From an uncultured Lachnospiraceae bacterium (GTDB lineage Bacteria > Bacillota > Clostridia > Lachnospirales > Lachnospiraceae): DNA of 64,000 nt. The stretch covers positions 16,899-80,898 of the forward strand of contig CADCII010000009.1 of assembly GCA_902801515.1 (NCBI GenBank). Direction: 5' to 3'. A model generated the notes under the pieces. That model was given only the letters and a program-made list of their open reading frames with translations, was not told the origin of the DNA and searched no databases. Below are positions 478 through 20,740 of the stretch, one piece after another (within the stretch, counting starts at the first letter, position 1; each line of letters starts with the position of its first letter). Position numbers and translations under genes: made by a program.

Positions 478-681
478 ATATAAGAACCTCCCCTTGGTTC
501 AGAGCCCGTATCTATGATCCGCATAACTCATGTCCGAATTATAGGAATCAAATATGTCTGAACCGTGTTTGAAACCTTAGCCTGAGATTAAGATTTGTTT
601 AAATTCCTCAAAGTAATCTGCTATATTCTAAATGCATATACGTACAGGCACGGGGCAATCCACGTGCAGCTGAGCGAATGG

Positions 682-5350: not shown

Positions 5351-5444
5351 CCGGGTGTTTTATTGATTTCCCCGGGAAAAGGATGTACGATACGGTGTGA
5401 TTTTTGCACTTCGTATCGGATGATAGAAACAAGGAGTGAATGAC

Positions 5445-6983
5445 ATGTTCTCTCTGTCATCTTACTTTTCCGTAGAATATATGTTGATCCTGCTGCCGCT
5501 GAGCGTGGGACTGTATCTGATCCTTCCGCAGAAACTGCGGCGCATAAGCCTGCTTCTGTGCAGTTATGCATTTTTCTGGGCAGTCAGCGGAAAGCTGATC
5601 CTGTACCTGCTGATCTCAACACTGATGGTATATCTCTTCGGGCTGTGGCTCGGAAGGATTCAGGACGAGCTGGCGCAGGCGCTTGCTGTCTGTGAAAAAG
5701 GCGGGAAAAAGGCAGTCAGAGCACAGTATCAGGCAAGACTTCTCCGGGTTTGTGTGCTGGGGGTCCTGCTTCACGTCGGAATCCTCCTCGGGGTGAAATA
5801 TACCCCGTTTTTTTCCGATAACCTGAACGTGCTGCTGCGAATGCTCCATATACCGGTCGTACTGAAACGACCGGTGTTTGCCATCCCCATCGGAATCTCT
5901 TTTTACACGATGCAGGCAGCCTCCTATGTCCTGGATGTCTACAGGGGGAAGATCCGTGCAGACCGTAATCTTCTGCGTATCGCACTGTTCATGAGTTTCT
6001 TCCCGCAGATCATGGAGGGACCGATCTGCCGGTATTCCGACACTGCCACGCAGCTGTGGGAAGCGCCGCGCATCCGGTTTGAGAACCTCACCGCAGGGAT
6101 CGAGAGGATCCTGTGGGGACTCATGAAGAAGACGGTTGTTGCCGACCGCCTGAACCTTCTGATTGAAAATGTGTTCTCCGGGTATGAGGCATATGATGGT
6201 TTTGTCATCGCCCTGGCAGCCGTATGCTATACGGTGCAGCTGTATATGGACTTTTCCGGCACCATGGATGTGGTGATCGGAACGGGACAGATCTTCGGGA
6301 TCACGATGCCGGAAAACTTTAAGAGGCCGTTTTTCTCAAAGACAATATCGGAGTTCTGGACCAGATGGCATATCACACTGGGTACGTGGTTCAAGGATTA
6401 TCTGTTTTATCCGCTCTCTGTCTCCAGACCGATGAAGAAACTCACATCCAGAGCAAGAAAGCGCTTCGGGAATCATTACGGACCACTCTTTTCGGGGGCG
6501 ATCGCGCTGCTGTGTGTATGGCTGTGCAATGGTCTGTGGCACGGGGCCGGCTGGCATTATATTGTCTTCGGCTTGTATCATTTTGTACTGATTCTGACCG
6601 GGAACCTGATCGCTCCACTCAGCATAGCACTGGCGGAAAAACTGCATATCCGCAGGGATCATTTCCTCTACCGCACACTGCAGGGAATCCGTACCTTCGT
6701 GCTTGTATGCATCGGAGAACTGATATTCCGCGCGCTCTCCCTGGGACAGGCTGCGGGCATGCTGAAGAAGATAGGAACACAGTTCACAACGGCTGTGCTC
6801 AGGGACGGGTCGCTGTTTACGATGGGAATGGACCGGCAGGACTACATCATAGTGTTTGTGACCCTCGTCATCGTGCTGATCGTCGGGATCGTGCAGGAGC
6901 GCCGGTCAACCCGATCTATGCGGGATTCTGAGGACCTGGTCAGGGTGACTGTTATTGACGACAGGAAGAGGCGGTGGAAGTGA
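5445..6983 (+). CDS. MBOAT-family membrane O-acyltransferase (DltB/AlgI-like)
   Basis: This 512-residue multi-pass protein is a membrane-bound O-acyltransferase of the DltB/AlgI branch. Diagnostic segments include IGISFYTMQAASYVLDVYRG, MSFFPQIMEGPICRY, QLYMDFSGTMDVVIG, FWTRWHITLGTWFKDYLFYP, and NGLWHGAGWHY, whose His (residue about 366) is the expected catalytic histidine. The family moves acyl groups through the membrane onto extracytoplasmic polymers or proteins. AAGGAG eight bases before the ATG at 5445 sets the start. The next gene, an SGNH-like partner, overlaps it by ten bases, as in DltB/DltD and AlgI/AlgJ pairs. No acyl carrier protein is encoded here; one lies at 38486. Confidence 0.9.
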   Translation: MFSLSSYFSVEYMLILLPLSVGLYLILPQKLRRISLLLCSYAFFWAVSGKLILYLLISTLMVYLFGLWLGRIQDELAQALAVCEKGGKKAVRAQYQARLLRVCVLGVLLHVGILLGVKYTPFFSDNLNVLLRMLHIPVVLKRPVFAIPIGISFYTMQAASYVLDVYRGKIRADRNLLRIALFMSFFPQIMEGPICRYSDTATQLWEAPRIRFENLTAGIERILWGLMKKTVVADRLNLLIENVFSGYEAYDGFVIALAAVCYTVQLYMDFSGTMDVVIGTGQIFGITMPENFKRPFFSKTISEFWTRWHITLGTWFKDYLFYPLSVSRPMKKLTSRARKRFGNHYGPLFSGAIALLCVWLCNGLWHGAGWHYIVFGLYHFVLILTGNLIAPLSIALAEKLHIRRDHFLYRTLQGIRTFVLVCIGELIFRALSLGQAAGMLKKIGTQFTTAVLRDGSLFTMGMDRQDYIIVFVTLVIVLIVGIVQERRSTRSMRDSEDLVRVTVIDDRKRRWK

Positions 6984-7954
6984 CAGACAGAAAGAGAATA
7001 TATATCAGGAGATCTTTTTTCGCAGTCCTCTTTTTTCTGGGACTGGCGGTTCTCCTTACTGTAGTTTCATTTATCTTCGTTCCGAAGGACAATACAGAGG
7101 AAGCCGGGATGGAGGAAGTGTTTGCCAACGGCATTCTGGGAGAACCGGAGGATACGATCGATGTCCTGGTGGCGGGGGACAGTTACTCCTATACAGCTAC
7201 GATACCGCCGCAGATCTGGAAAGAGGCAGGGATCACGTCCTATGCTAGCGGGACCAATGACCAGTCTCTGGATTATACGCTGGTCATGCTGAAGCGCGCT
7301 TTCCGCACGCAGAATCCGAAGGTCGTGCTGCTGGAGGCAAGTCCCATTTTCCGGGAGATCACACCTTTTGGCCGTCTGACAGCAGAGCTGTCATCTGTAT
7401 TTTCGGTATTCCACTATCATGACAGATGGAAGTCGCTCAGAAGGAAAGATTTTACACACCGGCCTGAGTATACATTGACAAAGGATTACAAGGGGTATAA
7501 GTATTTTACAAAGATTGTACCGGCGCCGGATGCCGATAATATGGCAAAAACAGATGACGCAGAACCGATCCCTGAATCGAGCCGGTATTATATGAAAAAG
7601 ATCCTGAAGTTCTGTCAGGATCATGGTGCGGTTTTGGTGCTGATGAGTGCGCCGAACCGGACATACTGGAATTACAGCCGGCATAACGGCATAAGCGCCC
7701 TGGCCGAAGAACTCGGCTGCGACTATATTGACGCAAACCTTGCCGACGAAGAGATCGGGATCGACTGGGAACACGACACCTGTGACGGCGGAGACCATCT
7801 GAACCATGCAGGGTCCGTCAAGGCAACTCAGTTTGTGACCGGGTATCTGACTTCACTGGGGATCCTGGAGGATCACAGGGGGGATCCGAAGTATTCGCAC
7901 TGGGACAAAGCGCTGAAGAAATACGAGAAACAGGTCCGGAAAGAGGACATCTGA
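6974..7954 (+). CDS. Membrane-anchored SGNH/DltD-AlgX-like acyltransferase partner
   Basis: The 326-residue protein has one N-terminal membrane anchor (residues about 14-36) and an extracytoplasmic SGNH-type domain. The nucleophile motif is VLVAGDSYSYTA (Ser about 70), and the late DGGDHLNHAG motif provides the likely Asp-His pair (274/275 or nearby 278). VVLLEASPIFRE matches the block seen in DltD/AlgJ/DHHW proteins. Such proteins complete acyl transfer started by the MBOAT protein. The GTG start overlaps the end of the MBOAT gene, implying translational coupling. The acceptor polymer is unknown. Confidence 0.8.
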   Translation: MEVTDRKRIYIRRSFFAVLFFLGLAVLLTVVSFIFVPKDNTEEAGMEEVFANGILGEPEDTIDVLVAGDSYSYTATIPPQIWKEAGITSYASGTNDQSLDYTLVMLKRAFRTQNPKVVLLEASPIFREITPFGRLTAELSSVFSVFHYHDRWKSLRRKDFTHRPEYTLTKDYKGYKYFTKIVPAPDADNMAKTDDAEPIPESSRYYMKKILKFCQDHGAVLVLMSAPNRTYWNYSRHNGISALAEELGCDYIDANLADEEIGIDWEHDTCDGGDHLNHAGSVKATQFVTGYLTSLGILEDHRGDPKYSHWDKALKKYEKQVRKEDI

Positions 7955-7962
7955 GATATAAT

Positions 7963-8029
7963 ATGATGTAAAGGTCAAAAGCCCTGAAGCCGAGGCAAGC
8001 TTGCTTGCCAGAGGCGATCCGTACATCAT
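7963..8029. repeat. Palindromic intergenic element
   Basis: ATGATGTA (7963-7970) is inverted as TACATCAT (8022-8029), enclosing a second perfect pair GGCAAGC/GCTTGCC (7994-8000 with 8003-8009). It fills most of the gap between the SGNH and beta-propeller genes. No T-run follows, so a processing or REP-like element is more likely than a terminator. Confidence 0.6.
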
Positions 8030-8056
8030 AGTTGGGGGCAACAGGAAGGAATCATC

Positions 8057-10156
8057 ATGGCAGAGGATAGAAGCAGAAGATCTTCATCAGACGGAGAGGT
8101 GCGCCGCAGCGCGGGAACCTACCGTGCATCAGGAACGGGAAGTGCCGGCCGTACAGGAACGTACCGCAGGACGACCGCCGGAAGTGGGGAGCCCCGCCGC
8201 TCTGCAGCCGCCGGAAGCGGGGAGACCCGCCGCACTGTGACCGCCGGAAGAGAAGGTGCCCGCCGCACTGCGGCCGCCGGAAGCGGGGGAACCCGCCGCC
8301 CGGCAGGGAACAGTTCGTCCGCACACCATACAAAGGGAACCGTTCGTACGGGAAGCGGAGGCGCCCGCCGCTCAGCGACAGGAGCAACCCGCCGTACTGC
8401 TGCAGGCAGAAGCGCCGCCAGGCGCAGAAGACAGCAGCAGAATCTTAACACGATTCTCCTGCTTGGCGGATTTGCCGTGCTGCTGATCACAGCAGTCGTT
8501 CTCGTGATCATGGTGCTGCGCCAGGGACGCGATGAAGAGGTTCAGGAACCTGCACCTGCAGTTCCGATCCTGACGGAAGCGCAGGAGACAGAGCCGGAGA
8601 CTTTCCCCGAGGCACAGGAGGAAGTGGAGACGGCGCCTTCATTTTCACCGCACAGTACAGACGCGACGCTGCCCTCCAACCTGATCAGTTTTACCAATAT
8701 CCGGATCAATGATACAGACCTGGATTCTGTTTCTTCATACCAGCCGGCCGGGCAGATCGAATTCGGAATGCCCGGGGACTATACCGATGTGGAAGGGATC
8801 ATTACTTTCAGGGGAAGCAACTTCCGTGACAGGCCTGCATACGGCTATGCGAATATGAGGGAGCATGCCTTCGGGGATTCATGGACCAAGAGCAGCAGTT
8901 CTCTCGGACAGTGGTCCGGAAGCGGTTGGACCGGACAGCCTCTGATGATGAAGTGGCCTGCCGAAGTCAAAGCCCACATGAACATGTATGACTGGGCAAA
9001 GACGAAGGATGACCTGGTTGAGGTCATCTACGCCACGATGGACGGCAATATCTATTTCCTGGATCTGGAGACCGGGCAGGAGACCCGTGATCCCATGGTG
9101 CTTGGATTCACTTTCAAAGGAGCAGGTGCCCTGGATCCGAGGGGATATCCGATCATGTATCTCGGAGCCGGGATCAACAGCCCCATGTACGGGACAGCGA
9201 AGGCATTTATCATCAATCTGCTGGACTGCTCAGTCATGTACACCTTCGGATGCGGAGACCCGTTCTCCCTTCGCGGCGCACTGAGTTTCTTTGACTCCTC
9301 CGCGCTGGTGGATGCCGAGACCGATACGCTGATCTATCCCGGAGAGAACGGGATCCTGTACCTGATCAAACTGAACACGAACTATAACGAACAGGCAGGC
9401 ACTCTCTCGATCGCGCCTGACACTGTGGTAAAATGGAGATACAACGGCACCCGTTCCAACGCCACTACTTACTGGTGGGGCATGGAGGACAGCGCCTGTG
9501 TCTACGGCGGATACATGTTTATCGCCGACAATGGCGGCAACCTGATGTGCCTTGACCTGAACACCCTGGAACTGGTATGGGTCCAGGATGTCCTGGATGA
9601 CACCAATGATACACCGGTGCTGTCGGTCGAAGACGGGCATCTGTATCTGTATGTCAGTACGTCATTCCATCTCGGGTGGCGAAGTTCCAGTGTGGCGGAG
9701 ATCCCCATCTGGAAGATCGACGCGGAGACCGGAGAGATCATCTGGAGCACGCCGTATAACTGTACCACTATGGACGGCGTATCCGGAGGCGTCCAGTCGA
9801 CGATCGCTCTGGGCAAACATGATCTGTCCGACTATATCTATGCTACCGTTTCCATGACGGATTCTGTCAGCACAGGCGTGCTGTCATGCATTAACAAAAA
9901 GACCGGAGAGGTCGTCTGGGAGCACAAAGCCTACTATGCGTGGTCCTCTCCTGTATGTGTCTACAATACCGACGGAAGCGGTGTTGTGATCTACTGTACT
10001 TCGCAGGGTGAAGTGTTTATGCTGGACGGGCTGACAGGCAAAGTCCTGTCACAGATGCAGATGAACGGAAATGTAGAAGCATCCCCGGCCGTCTATAATG
10101 ACCGTCTTGTTGTAGGAACAAGAAACTGTATGATCTACGGAGTGCAGCTGAAATAA
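8057..10156 (+). CDS. Membrane-anchored PQQ-like beta-propeller with Arg-rich repeat tail
   Basis: The 699-residue protein has three parts. Residues about 1-125 are a very basic, low-complexity cytoplasmic tail built from repeats of 10-14 residues of the type AAAGSGETRRT. Residues about 130-155 form a membrane helix (ILLLGGFAVLLITAVVLVIMV). After an acidic Pro/Glu linker comes an extracytoplasmic BamB-like propeller with blades such as GNIYFLDLETGQE, GNLMCLDLNTLELVW, WKIDAETGEIIWS and GEVFMLDGLTGKVLS. BamB-type propellers scaffold envelope complexes or sense ligands. AGGAAGGA precedes the ATG. Position between the acyltransferase pair and the exporter suggests a surface sensor or assembly factor for this locus, which is inference. 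Confidence 0.8.
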   Translation: MAEDRSRRSSSDGEVRRSAGTYRASGTGSAGRTGTYRRTTAGSGEPRRSAAAGSGETRRTVTAGREGARRTAAAGSGGTRRPAGNSSSAHHTKGTVRTGSGGARRSATGATRRTAAGRSAARRRRQQQNLNTILLLGGFAVLLITAVVLVIMVLRQGRDEEVQEPAPAVPILTEAQETEPETFPEAQEEVETAPSFSPHSTDATLPSNLISFTNIRINDTDLDSVSSYQPAGQIEFGMPGDYTDVEGIITFRGSNFRDRPAYGYANMREHAFGDSWTKSSSSLGQWSGSGWTGQPLMMKWPAEVKAHMNMYDWAKTKDDLVEVIYATMDGNIYFLDLETGQETRDPMVLGFTFKGAGALDPRGYPIMYLGAGINSPMYGTAKAFIINLLDCSVMYTFGCGDPFSLRGALSFFDSSALVDAETDTLIYPGENGILYLIKLNTNYNEQAGTLSIAPDTVVKWRYNGTRSNATTYWWGMEDSACVYGGYMFIADNGGNLMCLDLNTLELVWVQDVLDDTNDTPVLSVEDGHLYLYVSTSFHLGWRSSSVAEIPIWKIDAETGEIIWSTPYNCTTMDGVSGGVQSTIALGKHDLSDYIYATVSMTDSVSTGVLSCINKKTGEVVWEHKAYYAWSSPVCVYNTDGSGVVIYCTSQGEVFMLDGLTGKVLSQMQMNGNVEASPAVYNDRLVVGTRNCMIYGVQLK

Positions 10157-10213
10157 CAGCAGACCGGCCGACCGGCAGCAATTGCCTTCAGGCGTTTGCA
10201 AGAGGAAGAAAAC

Positions 10214-12001
10214 ATGGACAGATCAGTAAATAGAAGTACCATATCACGCCAGATAACCAGGCCAATGGTTCTGTTTATCATGGTTTTATTGCTGATCAAT
10301 GCCTTTTTCCTGTTCTTCTTTTCACTCCATGAGGCCCTTCTGGACCGGTTTAACAGAGCAAGCGAGCTGGGAGAGACAGCAGCAAGAGAGATAGAAGAGT
10401 ATAAGAGTCTTTCATTTCTTCTTCCATACTGGCAGGAGCATTACGACAGTATGGATCTGATCTATGATGATCCTGAGCTGTTTGAAGAAAAAGAGAGATT
10501 TCTCTCCATGCAGATCACAGATGAGATGGAACTGCGTCTTGTGACCAGCGAGGAAGTGTACGCTCTGGATGAAGAGGGGCAGAAGCTTTTTGCCGAGATC
10601 TGTTACAGCAGGATGTGTGAAACGTTCGATTTTCTGAAACAGATCTATCATCCTATCTACCTCACCTTTTTCACAAAGCAGGATGACGGGATATTCTTCT
10701 ATATAACAGGAACCATGGAAAATGAGTTCCATATCAGCGAGGGCGGAAATCTGTTTGAACTCGGAAGTGTCGGAGAGTACAAAAAAGGGGTATATCCGAT
10801 CCTGGACGAGATCCTTCAGACCGGGCAGCCGTCGTCAGACCTTGAGCTGTCCCTGGAAAAAGGCGCGGACAATTCTCTGGTTCATTATTTCTATCCTGTC
10901 TACAGCAGAGGGGAGCTTGCCGGCGCAGTCGGTGTGTCTGTCCCCTGGAAAAACCTGATCACGAGTTTTATCGGTCCGGCTGTCGGAATCCTGGCAGCTT
11001 CTCTGATCCTGCTTGTGCTGGTCATGATGCGATTCGGAGCACTGATAAGGAAGCTTGTGATCATTCCGGTGCTGCAGGAATGCGAGATCATCGAGAATTA
11101 TAAGCAGAATAAAGACCAGCAGGAAGCCATAAGGGCTCTGGAAGCGATCAACTGCGGAAATGAGGTAGAGCTGATCGCCGATAACATGTCAGAGATGGTA
11201 CAGGAGATCGGCCGCTATGTGAAAGAGATAACAGTCAACACAACAGAGAAGGAGCGTCTGAATACAGAGCTCGAACTGGCGGCACGGATCCAGGCGGATA
11301 TGATCCCTGATAAATTCCCGGCCTTTCCTGACCGGAGTGATTTTGATGTCTATGCCAGTATGACTCCTGCCAAAGAGGTGGGAGGAGACTTCTATAATTT
11401 CTTCCTGACGGATGAAAACCATCTGTGCCTGATTATCGCAGATGTGTCCGGCAAGGGGATCCCTGCCGCGCTGTTCATGATGATGGTTACAACTGTAATG
11501 CATTACTGCGCGCGCGGAGGCATGACGCCGGCAAAAATCCTTCGTGTTGTAAATGACCAGCTGTGCGAGACGAACCGGGAAAAGATGTTTGTCACCGCAT
11601 GGATGGGCATCCTTAACCTGAAGACGGGGCATATGAATGCGGCAAACGCCGGGCATGAATATCCGATACTCAGTATGCCCGGAGAGTCTTTTGAGGTCCT
11701 TAAGGACAAGCATTCCTTCGTTCTGGGAGGTATCAGCGATATAGAGTACAAAGAATATGAACTGCAGCTGAAACCCGGATCCAGACTGTTCCTGTATACT
11801 GACGGCGTTCCGGAAGCGACAAACGCAGCGGATGAGATGTTCGGGGTGCAGCGCACGCTGGAAGCTCTCAATTCTGTGCCCGATGGTACGCCGCGCCAGC
11901 TTCTGGAGAGAGTCGAAACGGCTGTCAGGGAGTTTGTACAGGGCGCGCCTCAGTTTGATGACCTGACGATGCTGTGTATCGAGTATATTGGACAGGAATG
12001 A
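10214..12001 (+). CDS. Membrane-bound SpoIIE-type PP2C phosphatase with sensor domain
   Basis: The 595-residue protein has an N-terminal membrane helix (about residues 15-40), a 210-residue extracytoplasmic domain, a second helix (FIGPAVGILAASLILLVLVMM), a HAMP-like linker, and a C-terminal SpoIIE/RsbU PP2C domain. Metal-binding aspartates are visible in VGGDFYNF, IADVSGKGIPAA, YTDGVPEA and FDDLTM. This class dephosphorylates STAS-type antagonists to release sigma factors; the likely partner is the STAS protein at 19061, with the kinase at 19426 as counterpart. The ATG at 10214 has AGAGGAAG upstream and is preferred to TTG at 10196. It sits directly before the exporter genes. Confidence 0.9.
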   Translation: MDRSVNRSTISRQITRPMVLFIMVLLLINAFFLFFFSLHEALLDRFNRASELGETAAREIEEYKSLSFLLPYWQEHYDSMDLIYDDPELFEEKERFLSMQITDEMELRLVTSEEVYALDEEGQKLFAEICYSRMCETFDFLKQIYHPIYLTFFTKQDDGIFFYITGTMENEFHISEGGNLFELGSVGEYKKGVYPILDEILQTGQPSSDLELSLEKGADNSLVHYFYPVYSRGELAGAVGVSVPWKNLITSFIGPAVGILAASLILLVLVMMRFGALIRKLVIIPVLQECEIIENYKQNKDQQEAIRALEAINCGNEVELIADNMSEMVQEIGRYVKEITVNTTEKERLNTELELAARIQADMIPDKFPAFPDRSDFDVYASMTPAKEVGGDFYNFFLTDENHLCLIIADVSGKGIPAALFMMMVTTVMHYCARGGMTPAKILRVVNDQLCETNREKMFVTAWMGILNLKTGHMNAANAGHEYPILSMPGESFEVLKDKHSFVLGGISDIEYKEYELQLKPGSRLFLYTDGVPEATNAADEMFGVQRTLEALNSVPDGTPRQLLERVETAVREFVQGAPQFDDLTMLCIEYIGQE

Positions 12002-12055
12002 CACCAGCCGATGTCTGACGCGGAAAGAGCAGCCGGTGAAGAGAGGAGACCGCAG

Positions 12056-12547
12056 TTGGCGAATTCAGAGAAAGAAAATAAGATATTCAGAGATAAATCC
12101 ATGGAACAGCTCTCCACCCCTGAACAGCTCACGGGTTACCTGCATGTGACAGGCCCCGGAGTCTGGTTTGTACTGGGAGGGCTGATCATTCTTCTGTCAG
12201 GTCTGCTTGTCTGGGGGATATTCGGAAGACTCGTCTCAACCATAACGGTCCCTGCGAAGGCCGAGAACAGCAAAGTAAGCTGTTATATTCTGAAGGATGA
12301 CTTTGAACTGCCGGATGGAGAGATCACGATCACGATCGGAGATGTTGAAATGAAAGCAGATCCTGCGAAAGCGGAAGAAATTACGCTGGATGCTTCATAC
12401 GATCCGGAACTGTACAGCACAGGATATCTCAGCGCGGGCAAGAATGTGATCATCCTGCACTGCGAAACAACACTGCAGGACGGATTCTACAACGCAGAGG
12501 TCGTGACGGATGAACTCAAGCCGATCTCACTGCTGTTTTCCAAATAA
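12056..12547 (+). CDS. NHLP-type secretion membrane-fusion subunit, minimal form
   Basis: The short protein carries the N-terminal signature of NHLP/HlyD secretion subunits: MEQLSTPEQLTGYLHVTGPG followed by a membrane helix (WFVLGGLIILLSGLLVWGIFG). After the helix only about 100 residues remain, predicted as beta-rich, with no coiled-coil hairpin. Typical NHLP membrane-fusion proteins are about twice as long or more, so this one is reduced. AGAGGAG lies seven bases before a TTG at 12056; the ATG at 12011 is in frame but poorly placed relative to a ribosome site. It is followed 46 bases later by the first exporter ABC gene. Confidence 0.75.
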   Translation: MANSEKENKIFRDKSMEQLSTPEQLTGYLHVTGPGVWFVLGGLIILLSGLLVWGIFGRLVSTITVPAKAENSKVSCYILKDDFELPDGEITITIGDVEMKADPAKAEEITLDASYDPELYSTGYLSAGKNVIILHCETTLQDGFYNAEVVTDELKPISLLFSK

Positions 12548-12553
12548 ATGATG

Positions 12554-12568
12554 CGGGGACTGTCCCCG
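12554..12568. repeat. GGGGAC/GTCCCC palindrome
   Basis: CGGGGAC and GTCCCCG pair around a single T, in the gap between the membrane-fusion and peptidase-exporter genes. This sequence type is a common REP-like palindrome core. There is no T-run. Confidence 0.5.
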
Positions 12569-12593
12569 AAGTCACAGATACAGAGGACTGTGC

Positions 12594-14786
12594 ATGAAGA
12601 TAAAGAGCGCGACAATAAATAAGCCGGTGAAGGGCGGCGTTGCCAGAGTACCGGTGGTCATGCAGCTGGAGGCGCTGGAATGCGGCGCTGCGTGCCTGAC
12701 CATGGTGCTTGCATATTACGGGAAATGGGTTCCCCTGGAGCAGGTCCGCAGGGACTGCGGCGTATCCAGGGACGGTTCGAATGCCCGGAATATCATACTG
12801 GCGGCAAAAGGCTACGGACTGGAGCCCTCCGCGTATAAAGCAGAGCCGGCCGCGCTGAAGGAGCACGGGTCATTTCCATGTATCGTACACTGGGAATTCA
12901 ATCACTTTGTTGTGCTGGACGGTTTCCGCGCAGGAAAGGTATACCTGAATGACCCGGCGCGCGGCAAACTGACCATCACGGAAGAGGAGTTTGACCGGGG
13001 CTTTACAGGCGTTGTGATCATGCTGGAGCCCGGAGAAGCCTTTGAGCCTTCCGGAGAGCGCAGGAGCACACTGGATTTTGCCAGGAAACGCCTCAGAGGA
13101 GCCGGGAGCGCAGCGCTGTTTGTCATGCTGGTCTCCCTGATCGCCTCTTTGTTCCAGCTGATCGAACCTGCGACCACCAGGATCTTCATGGACAAGCTGC
13201 TGCCCGGGCGCAATAAAGACTGGATCATACCCTTCCTTGCAGTAATGGTTGTCCTTGCAGTCATTCAGCTGATCCTTGCCTGGATCAAAGCCGTCTATAT
13301 GCTGCGTATCCAGGGAAAGATGGCTGTCATCGGCAATATGACATTCATGTGGAAGCTTCTTCGCCTCCCCATCGACTTCTTTGCCCAGAGGATGTCCGGA
13401 GATATCCTGCAGCGCCAGGGAACCAACGCCACCATTGCAAGTACGCTGGTCAATACTTTCGCGCCGCTGATGCTCAATACGGGAATGATGGTCGTGTATT
13501 TTGTGCTGATGGTCCGCCAGAGCCTTCTGCTGACACTGGTCGGCGTCAGCTGCATGGCGGTCAATATGATCAATTCCTTTGTCCTCTCTTCCAAAAGAGT
13601 CAACATCACGCGCGTGCAGCAGCGTGACAGCGGAAGGCTGACGGGCATGACCATGAACGGAATCCGTATGGTGGAGACGATCAAGGCCAGCGGGTCCGAG
13701 AACGGATATTTCCGCAGCTGGTCCGGACTGCAGGCAGCGGTCAATGAGCAGTCTGTCAATTACGAGAGACTGAATATTGCCTTCAGTCTGTTCAGCTCGA
13801 TCCTGTCAGAGGCGGCTGATGTTGTGATCATGATCCTGGGTGTCTGGCTGACGATCCAGGGGAAATTCACAGTTGGTATGATCATGGCGTTCCAGTACTT
13901 TCTGAACGCGTTCATTACCCCGGTGACCAGCCTGGTATCCGCGGGGCAGATGCTCCAGGAGATGCGCACCAACATGGAGCGTGTGGAAGATGTAATGGAA
14001 TATCCGGACGCGCCGTCCATGGAGTACAAGGCGCAGGACGATGAAGCAGATATCAGCTATACGAAACTGTCCGGAAATATCGAACTGAAAAATGTGACCT
14101 TCGGATACGCATCGCTGAAGCCGCCCCTGATCGAGAATTTCAGCATGAGCGTGAAACCGGGAAGCCGGATCGCGTTTGTGGGAGCGTCGGGCTGCGGCAA
14201 GTCAACCATCGCGAAACTGATCTCCGGACTCTATGAACCATGGAGCGGAGAGATCCTGTTTGACGGAAAGAAAATCAGCCAGATCGACCGCAATGTATTT
14301 ACCGGATCTCTGGCTGTCGTAGACCAGGATATCATTCTGTTTGAAGACACGATCGCGGACAACATCCGCATGTGGGACCATACGATCGAAGATTACGAGG
14401 TCATACTGGCTGCAAGAGACGCCCAGATCCATGATGATATCATGCAGCGTGAAGGCGGTTATGAGAGCCGTCTGACGGAGGGCGGAAATGACATGTCCGG
14501 CGGGCAGCGCCAGAGACTGGAGCTTGCCAGAGTCCTTGCGCAGGATCCGACTATCATCATCCTGGACGAGGCAACGTCTGCGCTGGATGCCAAGACTGAA
14601 TACAATGCGATCAAGGCGATCACGGACAGAGGAATCACCTGTATCGTCGTCGCACACCGGCTGTCCACCATCAGAGACTGTGACGAGATCATCGTTCTCG
14701 ATCACGGCAGGGTGGCGGAGAGAGGAACGCACGAGGAACTGTACGCGATGGGAGGCCTGTACGCATCCCTGGTAACGAGCGGGTGA
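12594..14786 (+). CDS. NHLP-type peptide exporter with C39 peptidase, permease and ATPase
   Basis: The 730-residue protein fuses three parts. Residues 1-150 form a C39 double-glycine leader peptidase: the catalytic set is visible as Gln24, Cys30 in ECGAACL, His104 in NHFVVLDG and Asp120 in NDPA. Six membrane helices follow. The ABC domain has Walker A GASGCGKS (about 530), signature MSGGQ (634-638) and Walker B LDEATSALD (Asp658/Glu659). All catalytic residues look intact, so it should cleave and export peptides with GG-type leaders. It pairs with the next ABC gene, 34 bases downstream. No leader peptide of the NHLP or nitrile-hydratase type was found nearby. Confidence 0.92.
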   Translation: MKIKSATINKPVKGGVARVPVVMQLEALECGAACLTMVLAYYGKWVPLEQVRRDCGVSRDGSNARNIILAAKGYGLEPSAYKAEPAALKEHGSFPCIVHWEFNHFVVLDGFRAGKVYLNDPARGKLTITEEEFDRGFTGVVIMLEPGEAFEPSGERRSTLDFARKRLRGAGSAALFVMLVSLIASLFQLIEPATTRIFMDKLLPGRNKDWIIPFLAVMVVLAVIQLILAWIKAVYMLRIQGKMAVIGNMTFMWKLLRLPIDFFAQRMSGDILQRQGTNATIASTLVNTFAPLMLNTGMMVVYFVLMVRQSLLLTLVGVSCMAVNMINSFVLSSKRVNITRVQQRDSGRLTGMTMNGIRMVETIKASGSENGYFRSWSGLQAAVNEQSVNYERLNIAFSLFSSILSEAADVVIMILGVWLTIQGKFTVGMIMAFQYFLNAFITPVTSLVSAGQMLQEMRTNMERVEDVMEYPDAPSMEYKAQDDEADISYTKLSGNIELKNVTFGYASLKPPLIENFSMSVKPGSRIAFVGASGCGKSTIAKLISGLYEPWSGEILFDGKKISQIDRNVFTGSLAVVDQDIILFEDTIADNIRMWDHTIEDYEVILAARDAQIHDDIMQREGGYESRLTEGGNDMSGGQRQRLELARVLAQDPTIIILDEATSALDAKTEYNAIKAITDRGITCIVVAHRLSTIRDCDEIIVLDHGRVAERGTHEELYAMGGLYASLVTSG

Positions 14787-14820
14787 TCATGGAAGACAGA
14801 AGAGCTGGAGGAGAAGATCT

Positions 14821-16992
14821 GTGAGCTGGTTTGATGAACAGATCCGGCAGAGGAAGGCTGAAGACGATCAGGTTTTCAGGGAAGCCCTGTTAGATGCGGC
14901 AGGATCCGTCATGGGTGAAGCATTGTTCACCAGGGACGATCGTGCCCTGACAGGCGGAGCCCTGGAAAGGATACTTCGCTTCTACCATCTTAAATATATT
15001 GAGGCCCCGGAATCCATTAAGACGCTGGACGGACAGCTGGAATACATTCTGCATCCCAGGGGAATGATGTACCGGGAGATAAAACTGAAGGACGGCTGGC
15101 ACGAAGACGCCACAGGAGCGTTCCTCGGTTTTCTGGAAGAGAATAATACGCCCGTTGCTATGATACCGACAGGGCTTCGGGGATACAGATGCTATGATCC
15201 GTCCACTGACCAGTCCTGGAAAGTGACGAAGAAAAACGCCGTGCGCCTGAAGAAGGACGCATACTGTTTCTACCGTCCGTTCCCGCAGAAAGCATTGGAT
15301 ATTCCGGAACTGTTCAAGTATATTATCAGTTCCATGCGGCCGATGGATTTCCTGCTGGTTTTCGCGGTCACGCTGATAACGACACTGGTCGGCAAACTTA
15401 TCCCGAAGCTTACAAATATGCTGTATGGTTCGGTGCTGGAGCACAAGAGTGTTTCGGTCCTGATGGCCATGGCGGTATTCATGATCTGCGTCAAGGTCAG
15501 CCAGCTGACCATCTCGACAGGATCGCAGCTGATCAGCAGCTGTGTACAGACAAGGCTGGACCTGAACATTGAGTCTGCGGCCATGATGAGAGTCCTCTCC
15601 ATGCCGCCGTACTTCTTCAGGGAATACAGTTCCGGTGATCTTTCTTCCAGGATGCAGTCAGTGAGTTCTCTGTGTTCGGCGCTTGTGAGCGCAGTACTGT
15701 CCTCCGGCCTTACCTCGCTGGTGTCGCTGCTCTATGTGACGGACATCTTCCGGTACGCTCCGGTGCTGGTCGTTCCTTCGCTGGCGATCATAGGCCTGAC
15801 GATCGGAATGTCGGTCCTGAATCTGATCCTTGAGACCTCAAGGCAGAAGAAGATCATGGAGCAGGATGCGAAGACAATGGGTCTCTCATATGCTCTTGTG
15901 AACGGAATACAGAAGATTCGGCTGGCGGGCGCAGAGAAGAGATCCTTTGCGCACTGGGCGAATTCCTATAACCGTTCCGCGCAGCTTCAGTATAATCCGC
16001 CGATGATCCTGAAGATCAATTCGGTCATCAATGAGGCGATCCGCCTGGGCGGGATGATCACCCTGTACGCCATCGCGCTTGCGGGGGCGGTCACTATGAA
16101 GGACTATATGTCATTTAACGCAGCCTACGGCATGGTCATGGGCGCGTTCTCCTCGCTGGTCGGAGTGATCATGGTATTTGCCCGGATCAAACCGGTCCTT
16201 GATATGGCTTCGCCGATCCTGAAGACGGTTCCGGAGACAAGTGATCAGGGGCAGGTCCTGACCAGTCTCAAGGGAAATATCGAAATGAACAATGTGACCT
16301 TCCGGTATGTCAAGGACGGTCCCAAGATCATTGACAACATGTCGATGAAGATCAGGGCGGGAGAGTATGTCGCCATCGTCGGTCCGTCCGGCTGCGGAAA
16401 GTCTACACTGATGAGACTTCTGCTGGGCTTTGAGAAACCTGAACAGGGCGGTATCTTCTATGACGGCAGGAACCTGAAAAAGATCAACCTGCAGTCTCTG
16501 CGCCGCCGGATCGGAACGGTCATGCAGCAGGGCGGCCTGTTCAACGACAGCATCTATGCAAATATTGCCATCTCGGCGCCTTCACTGAGCATGAAGGAAG
16601 CGTGGGAGGCGGCGGAGATTGCCTGTATAGCGGACGATATCAGAGAGATGCCCATGGGTATGCATACGATGATCTCAGAAGGACAGGGCGGAATCTCCGG
16701 AGGACAGAAACAGAGGCTTATGATCGCACGCGCCATTGCGCCGAAGCCGTCGATCCTGATATTTGACGAAGCGACCTCAGCCCTGGATAATATAGCGCAG
16801 AAGAAAGTAACGCAAGCGCTGGACCGCCTGAACTGCACCCGGATCGTTATCGCGCACAGACTGTCGACGATCCGCAGCTGCGGCAGAATCCTGTATCTGG
16901 GAGACGGAAAAGTCCTGGAAGAGGGAACCTACGAAGAACTGATGGAAAAGAAAGGCCTGTTTGCCGAGATGGTGGAAAGGCAGCAGATATGA
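14821..16992 (+). CDS. NHLP-type exporter second ABC subunit
   Basis: The 723-residue protein has an N-terminal region of about 170 residues that is not a C39 peptidase (no CG motif), then six membrane helices and an ABC domain with GPSGCGKS (about 521), ISGGQ (625-629) and FDEATSALD. This architecture matches the second subunit of NHLP export systems, which probably forms a heterodimer with the peptidase-bearing subunit. GGAGGAG precedes the GTG start. The following sigma-factor gene starts only 13 bases later, so both are likely on one transcript. Confidence 0.9.
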   Translation: MSWFDEQIRQRKAEDDQVFREALLDAAGSVMGEALFTRDDRALTGGALERILRFYHLKYIEAPESIKTLDGQLEYILHPRGMMYREIKLKDGWHEDATGAFLGFLEENNTPVAMIPTGLRGYRCYDPSTDQSWKVTKKNAVRLKKDAYCFYRPFPQKALDIPELFKYIISSMRPMDFLLVFAVTLITTLVGKLIPKLTNMLYGSVLEHKSVSVLMAMAVFMICVKVSQLTISTGSQLISSCVQTRLDLNIESAAMMRVLSMPPYFFREYSSGDLSSRMQSVSSLCSALVSAVLSSGLTSLVSLLYVTDIFRYAPVLVVPSLAIIGLTIGMSVLNLILETSRQKKIMEQDAKTMGLSYALVNGIQKIRLAGAEKRSFAHWANSYNRSAQLQYNPPMILKINSVINEAIRLGGMITLYAIALAGAVTMKDYMSFNAAYGMVMGAFSSLVGVIMVFARIKPVLDMASPILKTVPETSDQGQVLTSLKGNIEMNNVTFRYVKDGPKIIDNMSMKIRAGEYVAIVGPSGCGKSTLMRLLLGFEKPEQGGIFYDGRNLKKINLQSLRRRIGTVMQQGGLFNDSIYANIAISAPSLSMKEAWEAAEIACIADDIREMPMGMHTMISEGQGGISGGQKQRLMIARAIAPKPSILIFDEATSALDNIAQKKVTQALDRLNCTRIVIAHRLSTIRSCGRILYLGDGKVLEEGTYEELMEKKGLFAEMVERQQI

Positions 16993-17005
16993 GGATATTG
17001 ACAAT

Positions 17006-17527
17006 ATGAGCACAGCAGCTGTTAAAGAACCTTTTGAGATCGTGTATGAGAAGTACTTCTCGGATATCTATAATTTCATTTACGGTCAGATCCTTCACCG
17101 GGAACGGGCGGAGGACCTGGTCAGCGACATCTTTGTCAAGGCGATGACCAATTATGAACGCTTTGACCCTTCGCGAGCTTCCGTGAGGACGTGGCTGACG
17201 AATATCGCCCGCAACACGCTGATCGACGATTACCGCAAGAACAGTATCCGGAAGAGCGTTTCTCTGGACGATGAAGATAATTATACAGAGCCGTCCTATG
17301 AGGATGAGTATAAGATCCTGAAGGAAGATGACGAAAGAGAAGTGTACCGGATCCTGTCGCTGCTCTCTGAATCAGAGAGAGAACTTGCCGGTATGATCTA
17401 TTTCCAGAACATGAAAAATAATGAGATTGGTGAGATCCTGGGCATCAATGCCAAAGCAGTCAGTGAGAGAAGACGCAGACTGCTGGCAAAGTGCAGAAAG
17501 CTTGCAGGAGATTTTACTCTGTACTGA
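17006..17527 (+). CDS. ECF-like sigma-70 family factor
   Basis: The 173-residue protein has sigma region 2 (YEKYFSDIYNFIYGQILHRE through RASVRTWLTNIARNTLIDDY) and region 4 (LSESERELAGMIYFQNMKNN followed by the EIGEILGINAKAVSERRRRL helix-turn-helix). There is no region 1 or 3, as in ECF factors. It probably directs RNA polymerase to promoters of this locus or of surface genes. The ATG at 17006 has a modest GAGG upstream. Its 3' end overlaps the convergent condensation-domain gene by 14 bases. No transmembrane anti-sigma factor is adjacent; control may come from the PP2C/STAS/HATPase set, which is inference. Confidence 0.88.
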   Translation: MSTAAVKEPFEIVYEKYFSDIYNFIYGQILHRERAEDLVSDIFVKAMTNYERFDPSRASVRTWLTNIARNTLIDDYRKNSIRKSVSLDDEDNYTEPSYEDEYKILKEDDEREVYRILSLLSESERELAGMIYFQNMKNNEIGEILGINAKAVSERRRRLLAKCRKLAGDFTLY

Positions 17528-18845
17528 TCTTTTCCCGTATGTCCGATACATCCATATCGGATGTATCGGACAGCAGTTCGTCAAGCGCATGGAGATACAG
17601 ACGGAGCAGTCTCTCCATATTCTCCGGGAAATAGCGGGTTCCCTGGTATGTAACTTTCATGAGCAGCGGCTGGTCGGCGCCGGCTTCCATAATGATGATC
17701 TGGACAAGGCAGAGCATTCCTTCCATTGAGTCCAGCCAGACGGTAAGATCACTGCCCTCCGGCAGATTGCCGGGATCATCGTCGCCGGGAAGATAACAGA
17801 TCTTCATGCATTCGTTAACTGTGGGAGACATATTGCGCAGCGCATAGGAGTATTCGCTGTAACGATGCCCCAGTTCATACTGCCGGCGGGCTTCGCCGAG
17901 AATCTGCTCGCGTGTTGTGAGAGCGCTGAAGTTCATGGCTGCCGGGATTCCCGCTATCATGAGACCGGCCAGATCTTTTTTCCACGCTTCCCGCCTTCCG
18001 TAGTAGACCCATTCTATCTCCACTTTCGGGTCATGATTATAACGGCTCAGCGCAAGCAGTCCCGCAGTGGTCAGTGCCATGCCGAACGGGATATCAAGGC
18101 GTTTGGCCGCATTCTTATAATAGCTCAGGGAATGAGCGGCCGGGAGAAAATACGTGCCGTTCTCGTTCTCACTGGAGTCCATATCCGGTTTCGGAAATCT
18201 GGAACAGGTGCCGGGATACAGACGGGCAAGCTCGCGAAGATCTTCAGCCGCACTGGCAGATTTCATTTTCCTGGCATATTCGTCCAGATACAGGTAATAA
18301 TGGTCCGGGAAAGGCTCCCTGTTTTGCATGACGTCAAAGATCTGACGGTAGACGAACATGCACATGCCTTTATCTGAGATGGTATGATGAAAATCTGTCA
18401 GCAGGTATATGTTTTCGGGCGTAACCAGGATCTTGTGTCTCCAGAGCAGGGAATCGATCAGATGGTAAGGCTTTATAAAGATGTCCTTCCTGTATGCCAG
18501 GGCGTATTCTTCCGTGCAGTGAAGGATCTCTATGTCCGGAACAAGCTGCGGGCAGCAGCGCTGCACCAGGCTTCCGTCATCACTGAAAGTGAATACGGTT
18601 GAGAAGACTGCGTAATGATGGAATACCCGGTCCACTGCATCCTTCAGGGCCTGAACATCGACAGTTCCTGCGGGGATCCTGCAGAACATGGTGATATTCA
18701 TGATATCTTTATTCGGAGAATAAAGCTGGTAATCCAGGAAAAAACGCTGGTAGGGAAGCAGAGGCTGGTCTTTGGATCTGGCCTTCCTGCTCAGGAATGT
18801 GTCCGGAAGCTCCGGCTGAAGATGATTATATTCATTTATATTCAT
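17514..18845 (-). CDS. Stand-alone condensation-domain-like protein
   Basis: The 443-residue protein resembles an isolated nonribosomal-peptide condensation or CoA-dependent acyltransferase domain. The N-terminal half has LLPYQRFFLDYQLYS and the active-site-like DFHHTISDKGMCMFVYRQI, matching HHxxxD. The C-terminal half has GMALTTAGLLALSRYNH. Such domains join an acyl or aminoacyl group carried on a carrier protein to an amine or hydroxyl. No adenylation or carrier domain is present here; the nearest carrier protein is at 38486. GAGGGA precedes the start. It runs opposite to the exporter block but shares the divergent promoter region with the STAS gene. Confidence 0.75.
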   Translation of the reverse strand: MNINEYNHLQPELPDTFLSRKARSKDQPLLPYQRFFLDYQLYSPNKDIMNITMFCRIPAGTVDVQALKDAVDRVFHHYAVFSTVFTFSDDGSLVQRCCPQLVPDIEILHCTEEYALAYRKDIFIKPYHLIDSLLWRHKILVTPENIYLLTDFHHTISDKGMCMFVYRQIFDVMQNREPFPDHYYLYLDEYARKMKSASAAEDLRELARLYPGTCSRFPKPDMDSSENENGTYFLPAAHSLSYYKNAAKRLDIPFGMALTTAGLLALSRYNHDPKVEIEWVYYGRREAWKKDLAGLMIAGIPAAMNFSALTTREQILGEARRQYELGHRYSEYSYALRNMSPTVNECMKICYLPGDDDPGNLPEGSDLTVWLDSMEGMLCLVQIIIMEAGADQPLLMKVTYQGTRYFPENMERLLRLYLHALDELLSDTSDMDVSDIREKISTE

Positions 18846-18973
18846 TATTCAGTCCCTCGCATACTGGCTTATGTCTGTTTCGTGATGTGTCGGTATACCA
18901 CCGCCCGGGCAAAAAGTTCTTTTGATCCTGGCATGAGTATATATAAAAATGACACGAAATAGCAATGTTAAAA

Positions 18974-19002
18974 TTGTTTGACAGCCGCTCTTATGGTATA
19001 GT
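18974..19002 (+). promoter_or_regulatory. Probable sigma-A promoter of the STAS/HATPase genes
   Basis: TTGTTT (18974-18979) and TATAGT (18997-19002) are separated by 17 bases, about 60 bases before the STAS start. A nearby TTGACA at 18978 is offset and less well spaced. Confidence 0.5.
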
Positions 19003-19028
19003 ATTTATCGGACATGTATGTTAATAGG

Positions 19029-19042
19029 CGGCGGCGCCGCCG
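19029..19042. promoter_or_regulatory. GC-rich perfect palindrome in STAS leader
   Basis: CGGCGGC followed directly by GCCGCCG forms a 14-base perfect dyad between the promoter and the AAGGAGG ribosome site. It could be an operator or a loop-less structure; nothing shows which. Confidence 0.45.
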
Positions 19043-19060
19043 TTTGAAGGAGGAATAAAC

Positions 19061-19360
19061 ATGTTAAACATTAATAAGACGACAGAAAACGGAACCTGCA
19101 CAGTTGCTCTTGAAGGCAGACTGGATACCATTACTTCACCGGAACTGGAAACCGAACTGAAGTCGTCTCTCGACGGAGTGACTGAACTGATCATGGATTT
19201 TGAGAAACTGGAGTATATCTCTTCCGCAGGCCTGCGTGTTCTGCTGTCCGCTCAGAAGACCATGAACAATCAGGGATCCATGAAAGTCATCCATGTTAAT
19301 GATACAGTTATGGAGATCTTCGAAGTAACGGGATTTGTTGATGTGCTGACCATCGAGTAA
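19061..19360 (+). CDS. STAS-domain anti-sigma factor antagonist
   Basis: The 99-residue protein is a complete STAS domain of the RsbV/SpoIIAA type. The phosphorylation loop reads DFEKLEYISSAGLRVLL, with Ser54/Ser55 as the expected phosphate acceptor. In the partner-switch model, the unphosphorylated form binds the HATPase kinase, which frees the kinase's other target, and a PP2C phosphatase resets it. AAGGAGG precedes the ATG. The kinase gene follows after 65 bases and a matching phosphatase is encoded at 10214, so all three parts of the switch lie within 10 kb. Confidence 0.92.
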   Translation: MLNINKTTENGTCTVALEGRLDTITSPELETELKSSLDGVTELIMDFEKLEYISSAGLRVLLSAQKTMNNQGSMKVIHVNDTVMEIFEVTGFVDVLTIE

Positions 19361-19425
19361 TCAGGGAGAATCTTGCCGCACTGATCGGATTCAGGAGTTA
19401 TTGAGTATGCAGAAGGAGGCAGGCC

Positions 19426-19833
19426 ATGCAGGATGAATTGGTAATTGAGGCTGCAGTGGAAAAACTCCCTGAGGTTATTGGGTTTATCGAGAGCCATCTT
19501 GAAGAGGCTGGCTGCAGTATGAAGGCTCAGATGCAGATCTGTATTGCTGTGGAAGAAGTCTTTGTCAATATTGCGAATTATGCCTATGCCCCTGATAAAG
19601 GGAATGCAACGATTCGCATAGAGGTCCCTGATGAGCCGGTAGCTATCGTCACGTTCATGGATCATGGCGTGCCCTTTGATCCGCTCTCAAAAGCGGATCC
19701 GGACATCGGTCTTCCTGCCGCGCAGCGCAGGATCGGAGGCCTGGGGATCTTCATGACCAAGAAGACGATGGATAATGTTGAATATGAATACAAGGACGGG
19801 CAGAATATACTGAGGCTTAAGAAGAATCTGTAA
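19426..19833 (+). CDS. HATPase-type anti-sigma regulatory kinase (RsbW-like)
   Basis: The 135-residue protein is a GHKL ATPase domain without a histidine-kinase dimerisation region. The N box is AVEEVFVNIANYAY, the G1 box DHGVPFDPL, and the G2 box RRIGGLGIFMTKKTMD. RsbW-like proteins phosphorylate a STAS partner and sequester a sigma factor or another target. AGGAGG precedes the ATG. An intrinsic terminator ends the STAS/HATPase unit. Whether it holds the ECF factor at 17006 or a different target cannot be told from sequence. Confidence 0.9.
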   Translation: MQDELVIEAAVEKLPEVIGFIESHLEEAGCSMKAQMQICIAVEEVFVNIANYAYAPDKGNATIRIEVPDEPVAIVTFMDHGVPFDPLSKADPDIGLPAAQRRIGGLGIFMTKKTMDNVEYEYKDGQNILRLKKNL

Positions 19834-19882
19834 GAAAGCCGACGTATTGCACGGCCGGTCCTGAAAACCTTATGGCGGGCAT

Positions 19883-19919
19883 AACCTGCCGGCGTCAAAA
19901 AAGTGCCGGCAGGTTTTTT
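19883..19919 (+). terminator. Intrinsic terminator after the HATPase gene
   Basis: AACCTGCCGGC (19883-19893) pairs with GCCGGCAGGTT (19905-19915) and is followed by TTTT. Confidence 0.9.
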
Positions 19920-19982
19920 CATTTCACAGGAAACGTCTCAGGATTTTCTGTGAGAGAGTAAGCTGAGAAAGGAGCCTTGATC

Positions 19983-20165
19983 ATGGGAGAAGTTGATCCG
20001 AAACTGCTTGAGATGGCAGAAGTGTTCCATATTCCGAAGAAGGCAAGGATGAAATATATCATCCTTCCAGCGAAGATGCCGGGACTGTCCAGACTGTTTG
20101 GCAAAAAGAACGCGGCAGATACCTCCGCGGCGAAAAAGGGCAGGAAGGGAGGAGCACACCGATGA
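19983..20165 (+). CDS. 60-residue basic peptide coupled to ABC ATPase
   Basis: A short protein starts at the ATG at 19983 with GAAAGGAG at correct spacing. It begins acidic (MGEVDPKLLEMAEVFHIPKK), passes through an amphipathic basic stretch (ARMKYIILPAKMPGLSRLFG), and ends in a Lys/Gly-rich tail. There is no signal peptide and no clear double-glycine cleavage site, so it does not look like a normal C39 substrate. Its stop codon overlaps the start of the ABC ATPase gene (ATGA), implying coupled translation. It could be a small partner of the ATPase, or an unusual export substrate. No known family was recognised. Confidence 0.6.
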   Translation: MGEVDPKLLEMAEVFHIPKKARMKYIILPAKMPGLSRLFGKKNAADTSAAKKGRKGGAHR

Positions 20166-20740
20166 CGATACAGCTGCAGGATATATGTAAGTCCGTAGCA
20201 GGCAAAGCGGTCCTCAAGGATATCAACTGGGAGATCGGATCGGAAGACTGCTGGCTTCTCGCAGGTCCTTCGGGCAGCGGCAAGACCATGCTTCTTCGCC
20301 TCATCCTGGGCCTGGAAAAACCGGACAGCGGGTCCGTGAATCTGCTGGGAGACTATAAATACGCCAGCGTGAACGCCGGCGTTGTGTTCCAGGAAGACCG
20401 CCTGTGCGAACAGTTTTCCGCGCTTGAGAATGTCGCCATGGTAAATGAGCGCCTGTCGGAGATGGTCGCCGGAGAAGAACTGAGCAAGTTTCTGCCGCAG
20501 GAGCGGCTGACCGTTCCGGTGTGTGAACTCGATCCGGTTGAGCGCAGGCTGGTCGTCATGATCAGGGCGTGCATCATACCGTCGGACATTCTGCTTCTGG
20601 ACGAACCGTTCCGCGGGATGGACAGCGGTCTGCGGGACAAAGTGATTGCCTACATCCGTGACAAAGCAGGTCACAAAGGGATCGTATTTGTGCAGCAGGA
20701 CGACTCCGGCCTGGAATTCTGCCGGAAGTTCGTACTGTAA
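20162..20740 (+). CDS. Orphan ABC ATPase with degenerate signature motif
   Basis: The 192-residue protein is a short ABC ATPase. Walker A is intact (GPSGSGKT), the Q-loop region reads VVFQEDRL as in SsuB/TauB-like importers, and Walker B is DILLLDEPF. The LSGGQ signature is replaced by CELDPVERRL, and the H-loop histidine position reads FVQQDDSG, so normal ATP hydrolysis is doubtful. No permease gene is adjacent. It is translationally coupled to the 60-residue peptide gene. It may act as a regulatory or structural ATP-binding protein; that is inference. Confidence 0.8.
   Translation: MTIQLQDICKSVAGKAVLKDINWEIGSEDCWLLAGPSGSGKTMLLRLILGLEKPDSGSVNLLGDYKYASVNAGVVFQEDRLCEQFSALENVAMVNERLSEMVAGEELSKFLPQERLTVPVCELDPVERRLVVMIRACIIPSDILLLDEPFRGMDSGLRDKVIAYIRDKAGHKGIVFVQQDDSGLEFCRKFVL

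Follow-up and report, generated by a model that had tools for sequence, protein, structure and literature searches.

The stretch of DNA analysed here, called the window, is 64,000 nucleotides long and comes from an uncultured Lachnospiraceae bacterium (GenBank assembly GCA_902801515.1, contig CADCII010000009.1, positions 16,899 to 80,898 of the forward strand). Its genome is coded G000; other genomes carry G codes, and fetched stretches carry L codes. Within the window, a plus-strand run of genes at 5436-17527 encodes an MBOAT acyltransferase, an SGNH-like protein, a beta-propeller, a PP2C phosphatase, a HlyD-like subunit, two ABC transporter subunits (ABC1 and ABC2) and an extracytoplasmic function (ECF) sigma factor. 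It is followed by a condensation-domain gene on the minus strand, then a STAS gene and then a HATPase gene (Table 1). An original prediction on this DNA had listed these genes and read them as one regulated acylate-and-export unit, and every gene on its list was found to be present by profile matches in the window. The analysis suggests a different system. We put the probability at about two in three that the locus holds a C39 exporter core whose cargo, a leader peptide and a double-glycine protein, is encoded in trans behind a promoter predicted to be read by the locus's own partner-switched ECF sigma factor.

Table 1. Features of the window, with the proposed system first and the neighbouring genes after it. 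The sigma factor start was set by comparing orthologues; its open reading frame (ORF) opens at 16961.
Feature	Position	Strand	Match
Membrane sensor PP2C phosphatase, SpoIIE domain	10214..12001	+	PF07228, 168 bits
Short HlyD-like subunit, 178 amino acids	12011..12547	+	TIGR03794, 23.2 bits, positions 2-46 of 421 only
ABC1: C39 peptidase, permease and ATPase	12594..14786	+	TIGR03796, 923.3 bits (cut-off 853.3)
ABC2: partner permease/ATPase without peptidase	14821..16992	+	TIGR03797, 711.3 bits (cut-off 709.4)
ECF sigma factor	17006..17527	+	TIGR02937, 97.8 bits (cut-off 42.9)
STAS anti-sigma-factor antagonist	19061..19360	+	TIGR00377, 71 bits (cut-off 53)
HATPase kinase, candidate anti-sigma factor	19426..19833	+	PF13581, 78.9 bits (cut-off 27.4)
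Only strict sigma-type promoter site in the window	637..664	-	CGTGGA-N16-CGTATA, position weight matrix score 23.5
122-residue protein downstream of the 637..664 site, predicted regulon member	109..477	-	
MBOAT acyltransferase, judged a neighbour outside the system	5436..6983	+	PF03062, 57.5 bits (cut-off 27)
SGNH-like protein, neighbour	6974..7954	+	GDSL_2, 16.6 bits, below cut-off 32.9 (weak)
Membrane beta-propeller, PQQ/BamB-type behind a hydrophobic segment, probably a neighbour	8057..10156	+	
Condensation-domain protein, probably a neighbour	17514..18845	-	PF00668, 73 bits

The HlyD-ABC1-ABC2 exporter is a real unit. A search with ABC1 across 200 genomes of the family found 23 genomes above the cut-off, and 30 loci were fetched: 28 places above the cut-off, one in G041 just below it and a weaker place in G193. 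The three exporter genes recur in these 30 loci, and STAS, PP2C, HATPase and sigma genes also turn up. A wider scan with one genome per species supplied the best 80 exporter loci of a longer set (more exist), nearly all from uncultured Clostridia-type metagenome-assembled genomes (MAGs) of animal guts and rumen. In a tally with hidden Markov models (HMMs), HlyD was found in 77 and ABC2 in 76 of the 80 loci, followed by STAS (38), PP2C (32), HATPase (24) and the ECF sigma factor (21). Type-II leaders were found in 16 loci and type-I leaders in 5, one of them (L344) merely a 17-bit match. These HMMs were built from previously found loci, the PP2C model from four seeds only; many contigs are short, which makes the absences soft, and MAGs that are related do not count as independent cases. 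In 19 control loci chosen around MBOAT or PQQ/propeller genes (315 kb), this set of HMMs matched no leader or sigma gene and no STAS, PP2C or HATPase. A short HlyD is common among the relatives, with one cluster of median length 156 residues present in 73 of the 80 loci by clustering. The C39 domain of the window's ABC1 has Q24, C30, H104 and D120, which are invariant in 10 aligned exporters.

The predicted association of exporter, phosphorylation switch and sigma factor was borne out as a recurrent one, with a link to leader peptides in other genera. G269 carries on a single strand, in this order, a leader, a radical SAM enzyme, PP2C, STAS, sigma, HATPase, HlyD, ABC1 and ABC2. In the 19 genomes of the genus set, 15 have ABC1 at E <= 1e-150. 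Another exporter of this kind is encoded in the window's own genome (G000:C2:50643-52799, L050), with its own HlyD and ABC2 and an ABC1 that is 58% identical.

The small ORFs that adjoin related exporters encode double-glycine and Ala-Ala leaders. A leader alignment of four sequences, one of them from G212 itself, was used to search the genus set, and strong matches (E < 1e-15) were found in 6 of the 19 genomes, the window's own among them. Orthologues of the ECF sigma factor, at 70% identity or more, are present in exactly the same six genomes (G000, G201, G205, G212, G203 and G207). The chance of this exact match is 1 in 27,132 if the genomes are independent, which they are not. The two genes are also linked physically: in 16 of the 21 sigma loci among the 80 exporter loci, a leader ORF lies directly upstream of sigma on the same strand. 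The spacing between the two ORFs ranges from a gap of +1 to overlaps, five of which are four bases long, when the first possible codon is taken as the sigma start. Of the other five sigma loci, three have a leader elsewhere within them and two (L301 and L306) lack one. A second sigma type follows the same arrangement: eight further matches in the genus, at 34-39% identity, are each directly preceded by a second-type leader ORF.

The original prediction saw no substrate, and this stands for the window and fails for the genome, where candidate substrates lie on other contigs. A regular-expression scan of the window's small ORFs for double-glycine-type motifs gave three matches (codon scores 1.6, -7.8 and -79), none of them convincing, and a search of the whole genome with TIGR01847, a relative of the NHLP and Nif11 precursor models, gave no match at E <= 1. 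The leader of the window's genome was found at G000:C38:10153 (E 2.6e-20). Its 69-residue product ends LSEDDLNLVNAA-QGIWRDDEDPNLLK. The substrate pattern given for PCAT exporters, in the available parts of PMC12184118, is a hydrophobic residue at -12, an acidic one at -8, hydrophobic ones at -7 and -4, and Gly-Gly at -2/-1. L-12, D-8, L-7 and V-4 of LSEDDLNLVNAA match it, and positions -2/-1 are Ala-Ala, not Gly-Gly. Gly-Gly is present in a double-glycine protein on another contig (L377, MADFEKLNERELENAAGG..., G000:C26). Among 5.8 billion proteins the leader has 11 relatives at E <= 0.01, all of them unnamed and lacking Pfam domains. With a broader alignment, 11 of 397 family genomes matched at E <= 0.01, three of which had sequences in that alignment. 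Of the nine leader genomes at E <= 0.001, eight also have an ABC1 relative at E <= 1e-120. The exception is G396, where a truncated-looking leader ORF without a comparable exporter (L194 1451-1692) follows a strong sigma-type promoter match of score 26.8; it is possibly a relic.

Double-glycine ORFs of a sister genome and of the 80 loci have SH3_3 (PF08239, 32 bits) or LysM (PF01476, 57 bits) domains, in a check of four double-glycine proteins of which two had no Pfam match. A relative of the double-glycine protein in G212 was modelled: the predicted structure has six strands and, at residues 1-21, a leader of low confidence. SH3 domains make up most of its best Foldseek matches, and the first ten include the teichoic-acid-binding domain of the S-layer protein SlpA. 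A cluster of double-glycine LysM proteins is present in 10 of the 80 exporter loci. As a separate observation, a single exporter is followed downstream by several distinct double-glycine LysM proteins in L275, L286, L332 and L337, as if a whole wall-binding set were exported. The exporter's likely cargo consists of the 69-residue leader peptide and the double-glycine protein, whose family is predicted to be SH3-like; the genes of both lie on contigs other than the window's.

A promoter motif connects these scattered genes. The pattern [CT][GA]TGGA-N16-CGTATA was found upstream of seven of nine type-I leader genes, and the other two each come second, after a double-glycine SH3-like gene which itself carries the motif. 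The motif tracks sigma across genomes: the six sigma genomes contain 60 copies of GTGGA-N16-CGTATA (11, 11, 6, 7, 10 and 15) and the other 13 contain 5, while a reversed control pattern has 8 and 9. By a lenient test, 53 of the 60 sites are intergenic, versus 2 of the 5 elsewhere, and 51 of the 60 have a callable gene within 330 bases. After the six sites used in motif discovery were left out, 4 of the remaining 54 sites were found to precede double-glycine ORFs; the same test gave 6 such cases among 385 gene starts (one-sided Fisher p 0.024), and the G212 cargo and leader account for two of these six.

The sites kept in at least two genomes outline a predicted regulon. The leader has its site in five genomes, plus G212 by way of the operon, and a Bax1-I membrane protein in four. 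Sites are kept in three genomes before a secreted protein, the 122-residue protein of the window (orthologues in G201 and G205 also have the site), a 73-residue group and an uncertain ORF group. They are kept in two before the double-glycine SH3-like gene and a second secreted protein, and one further pair lies inside a coding gene. The 11 sites of the window's own genome precede the leader (G000:C38), the double-glycine gene L377 (G000:C26), the Bax1-I protein (PF01027, 85 bits), a TetR gene, the window gene and three proteins with Sec-like N-termini (by eye); of the other three, one falls within a large ORF, another lacks a callable gene and the third is unclear.

The second sigma type may have a promoter of its own. 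TTAGCC-N16/17-CGTAT has 20 sites in the six genomes where the second sigma type occurs by itself and 11 in the remaining 13; reversed as a control, it has 7 in the six. This is no more than suggestive of a second-sigma promoter. Separately, the double-glycine SH3-like genes of sister genomes (L213, L214 and L221) have a TTAGCC-like/CGTAT promoter in common with the second leader type, which hints that there is a second sigma specificity.

From these observations we infer recognition of the promoter by sigma, binding of sigma by the HATPase, cleavage of the leader and export of the cargo. In the proposed scheme, the membrane PP2C would sense an envelope signal and dephosphorylate STAS, and STAS would then capture the HATPase and so keep it from holding the ECF sigma factor. 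The freed sigma would read CGTGGA-N16-CGTATA before the leader, the double-glycine cargo and Sec-secreted envelope proteins. ABC1 would cleave after Ala-Ala or Gly-Gly of the leader and would act with ABC2 and the short HlyD to move the cargo out to the wall. The 14-residue tail of the leader may be a signal peptide or the by-product of an exported anti-sigma factor. Taken further, the leader could be sigma's own brake, holding it until the C39 exporter cuts and ejects the leader. We regard this extension as quite improbable; if true, the exporter's capacity would directly gate expression of the cargo it exports, and a Gram-positive peptide exporter would have a checkpoint resembling that of FlgM. 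If the proposed scheme is true, the NHLP-type exporters of gut and rumen Clostridia would gain a defined regulator, promoter and cargo, and that cargo would be small wall-binding-type proteins (predicted SH3-like and LysM) and not bacteriocins only. An orphan transporter annotation would become a system open to testing, and ECF sigma factors, the locus suggests, can come under the control of a PP2C-STAS-HATPase switch.

Several observations weigh against the proposed scheme. The six sigma genomes may be one clade, in which case their match would not count as six separate events, and the search alignment behind that match included the leader of G212 itself. G010 has a sigma at 61% identity without a comparable exporter or leader match, and in Mantel tests (partial r 0.40 and 0.61) sigma did not come out ahead of the exporter as partner of the leader. 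The double-glycine protein of the window's genome has no Pfam match, and the model of its G212 relative is weak (predicted local distance difference test score 70; best Foldseek E 0.11, none <= 0.001). Seven of the 60 promoter sites are inside genes, nine have no callable downstream gene, the exporter operon has no strict site in front of it, and most predicted regulon members are not export cargo. Finally, in a set with many short contigs, 33 of the 46 exporter loci with a switch gene show no sigma of this family, 8 of the 21 sigma loci show no switch gene and 26 of the 80 exporter loci show neither.

Because switch genes are so often found without sigma in exporter loci, the switch may act elsewhere, with the exporter or another protein as the target of PP2C, STAS and HATPase in place of the ECF sigma factor. 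We find this doubtful. In G203 and G207 the sigma, STAS and HATPase genes are contiguous, the leader lies divergently next to this trio, and the fetched stretch has no exporter gene; in G212 the same trio lies on a 4.5-kb contig, with the exporter on a separate short contig; and in G269 sigma sits between STAS and HATPase.

The locus might also be an ordinary NHLP/Nif11 exporter of bacteriocins or of ribosomally synthesised and post-translationally modified peptides, with the sigma factor and switch being general envelope-stress regulators that lie close by chance. ABC1 and ABC2 are above the NHLP cut-offs, Nif11-like precursors (by eye) and radical SAM genes occur in related loci, and the many regulon genes that are not cargo would suit such regulators. 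We nevertheless think this unlikely, since sigma, leader and promoter are common to the same 6 of 19 genomes, a leader ORF so often lies directly before sigma, and the double-glycine gene of the window's genome carries the promoter. A radical SAM enzyme cluster is present in 14 of the 80 exporter loci. In two other genera a radical SAM enzyme lies beside the leader or exporter (L255 11728-13456 (-) and L256), and the leader may there be a modified-peptide precursor.

The acylation half of the original prediction did not hold. It had proposed that the acyltransferase pair would be chance neighbours of the exporter if their homologues rarely occurred together in other genomes. This comparison was run, and MBOAT and SGNH were each found in 1 of the 80 exporter loci, as was the propeller, and condensation proteins in none, with HMMs of one sequence each; none of the four occurs in the 30 family loci. 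The MBOAT and SGNH genes look like chance neighbours by that standard. In favour of a joint unit of MBOAT, SGNH, propeller and exporter are the co-directional run itself, its full arrangement in G201 and, split over two contigs, in G205 (the only two such genomes of the genus), and the propeller beside the exporter in G212. Among the fetched genus loci, however, the pair adjoins the exporter only in G000, G201 and G205, and it stands without exporter genes in the fetched stretches (6-20 kb each) of G210, G214, G212, G069 and a second site of the window's own genome. The unrelated flanks EamA and PfkB are also syntenic in G201, so the shared arrangement there is plain synteny. Altogether the co-occurrence tally rules against an acylation-export unit; that reading is largely refuted, and we give it very little credence.

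The propeller looked promising as a conserved partner in G212, and was rejected. It was found in 17 of 299 family genomes, the window's own included, and the 12 propeller loci fetched from those genomes have no exporter alongside. The propeller and the condensation-domain protein are probably neighbours outside the system. Condensation/acetyltransferase-like proteins (by eye) were also seen near the leader of the window's genome (L181 10476-11792 (-)) and in the exporter loci L293, L308, L339 and L344. That genome has six MBOAT matches, counting the gene at 5436. Another of the six lies later in the window at 39910-41274 (-), and the one at G000:C43:2200-3654 (L151) has its own SGNH partner. 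A tRNA search of the window found none, and an Rfam search of the window found no match at gathering score.

The open-access literature, judged by titles and the starts of abstracts, gave no paper on this gene combination. Its parts resemble several known systems. The window MBOAT gene followed by an SGNH-like gene is like the DltB/DltD D-alanylation pair, but the MBOAT protein fails the DltB model TIGR04091 (168.1 versus a cut-off of 375 bits). The RsbU/RsbV/RsbW partner switch (SpoIIAA/SpoIIAB) consists of a PP2C phosphatase, a STAS antagonist and a HATPase kinase, and members of these families occur together in the window. There, however, sigma is of the ECF type and not sigma-B or sigma-F, and control of an ECF sigma by the HATPase is predicted. 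FlgM, acting on FliA, is an export-coupled anti-sigma factor; in the window's system, too, a small protein is encoded with sigma and predicted to be exported, and the leader's role as an anti-sigma factor is putative.

The closest annotation is NHLP/Nif11 export (TIGR03794, TIGR03796 and TIGR03797; PMC2887384). As far as the available parts of that paper go, the gene set is the same, both ABC subunits pass the curated cut-offs (ABC2 narrowly), and the leader motif is of the ELSDEELxxVAGG type. The window HlyD differs in failing TIGR03794 (23.2 versus 156.2 bits), and there is no convincing precursor beside the window exporter, as judged by the regular-expression scan alone (the precursor models TIGR03793 and TIGR03798 were not run). 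The word sigma has no occurrences in the available main text of Haft and colleagues (2010; PMC2887384), and the available text of a paper on rumen bacteriocins (PMC13289728) does not mention sigma, ECF or Nif11. The last comparison is with the MAM/PCAT exporter of Faecalibacterium, in the available sections of PMC12184118 and PMC8836110. These sections name no sigma factor or switch for MAM, its gene adjoins the exporter gene, and its leader motif is MMMPAN..VxGG. The likeness is in the proposed working: the C39 exporter of Faecalibacterium has been proposed to deliver an entire double-glycine protein to the envelope (PMC12184118, PMC8836110), and the window exporter would work in a way that resembles it.

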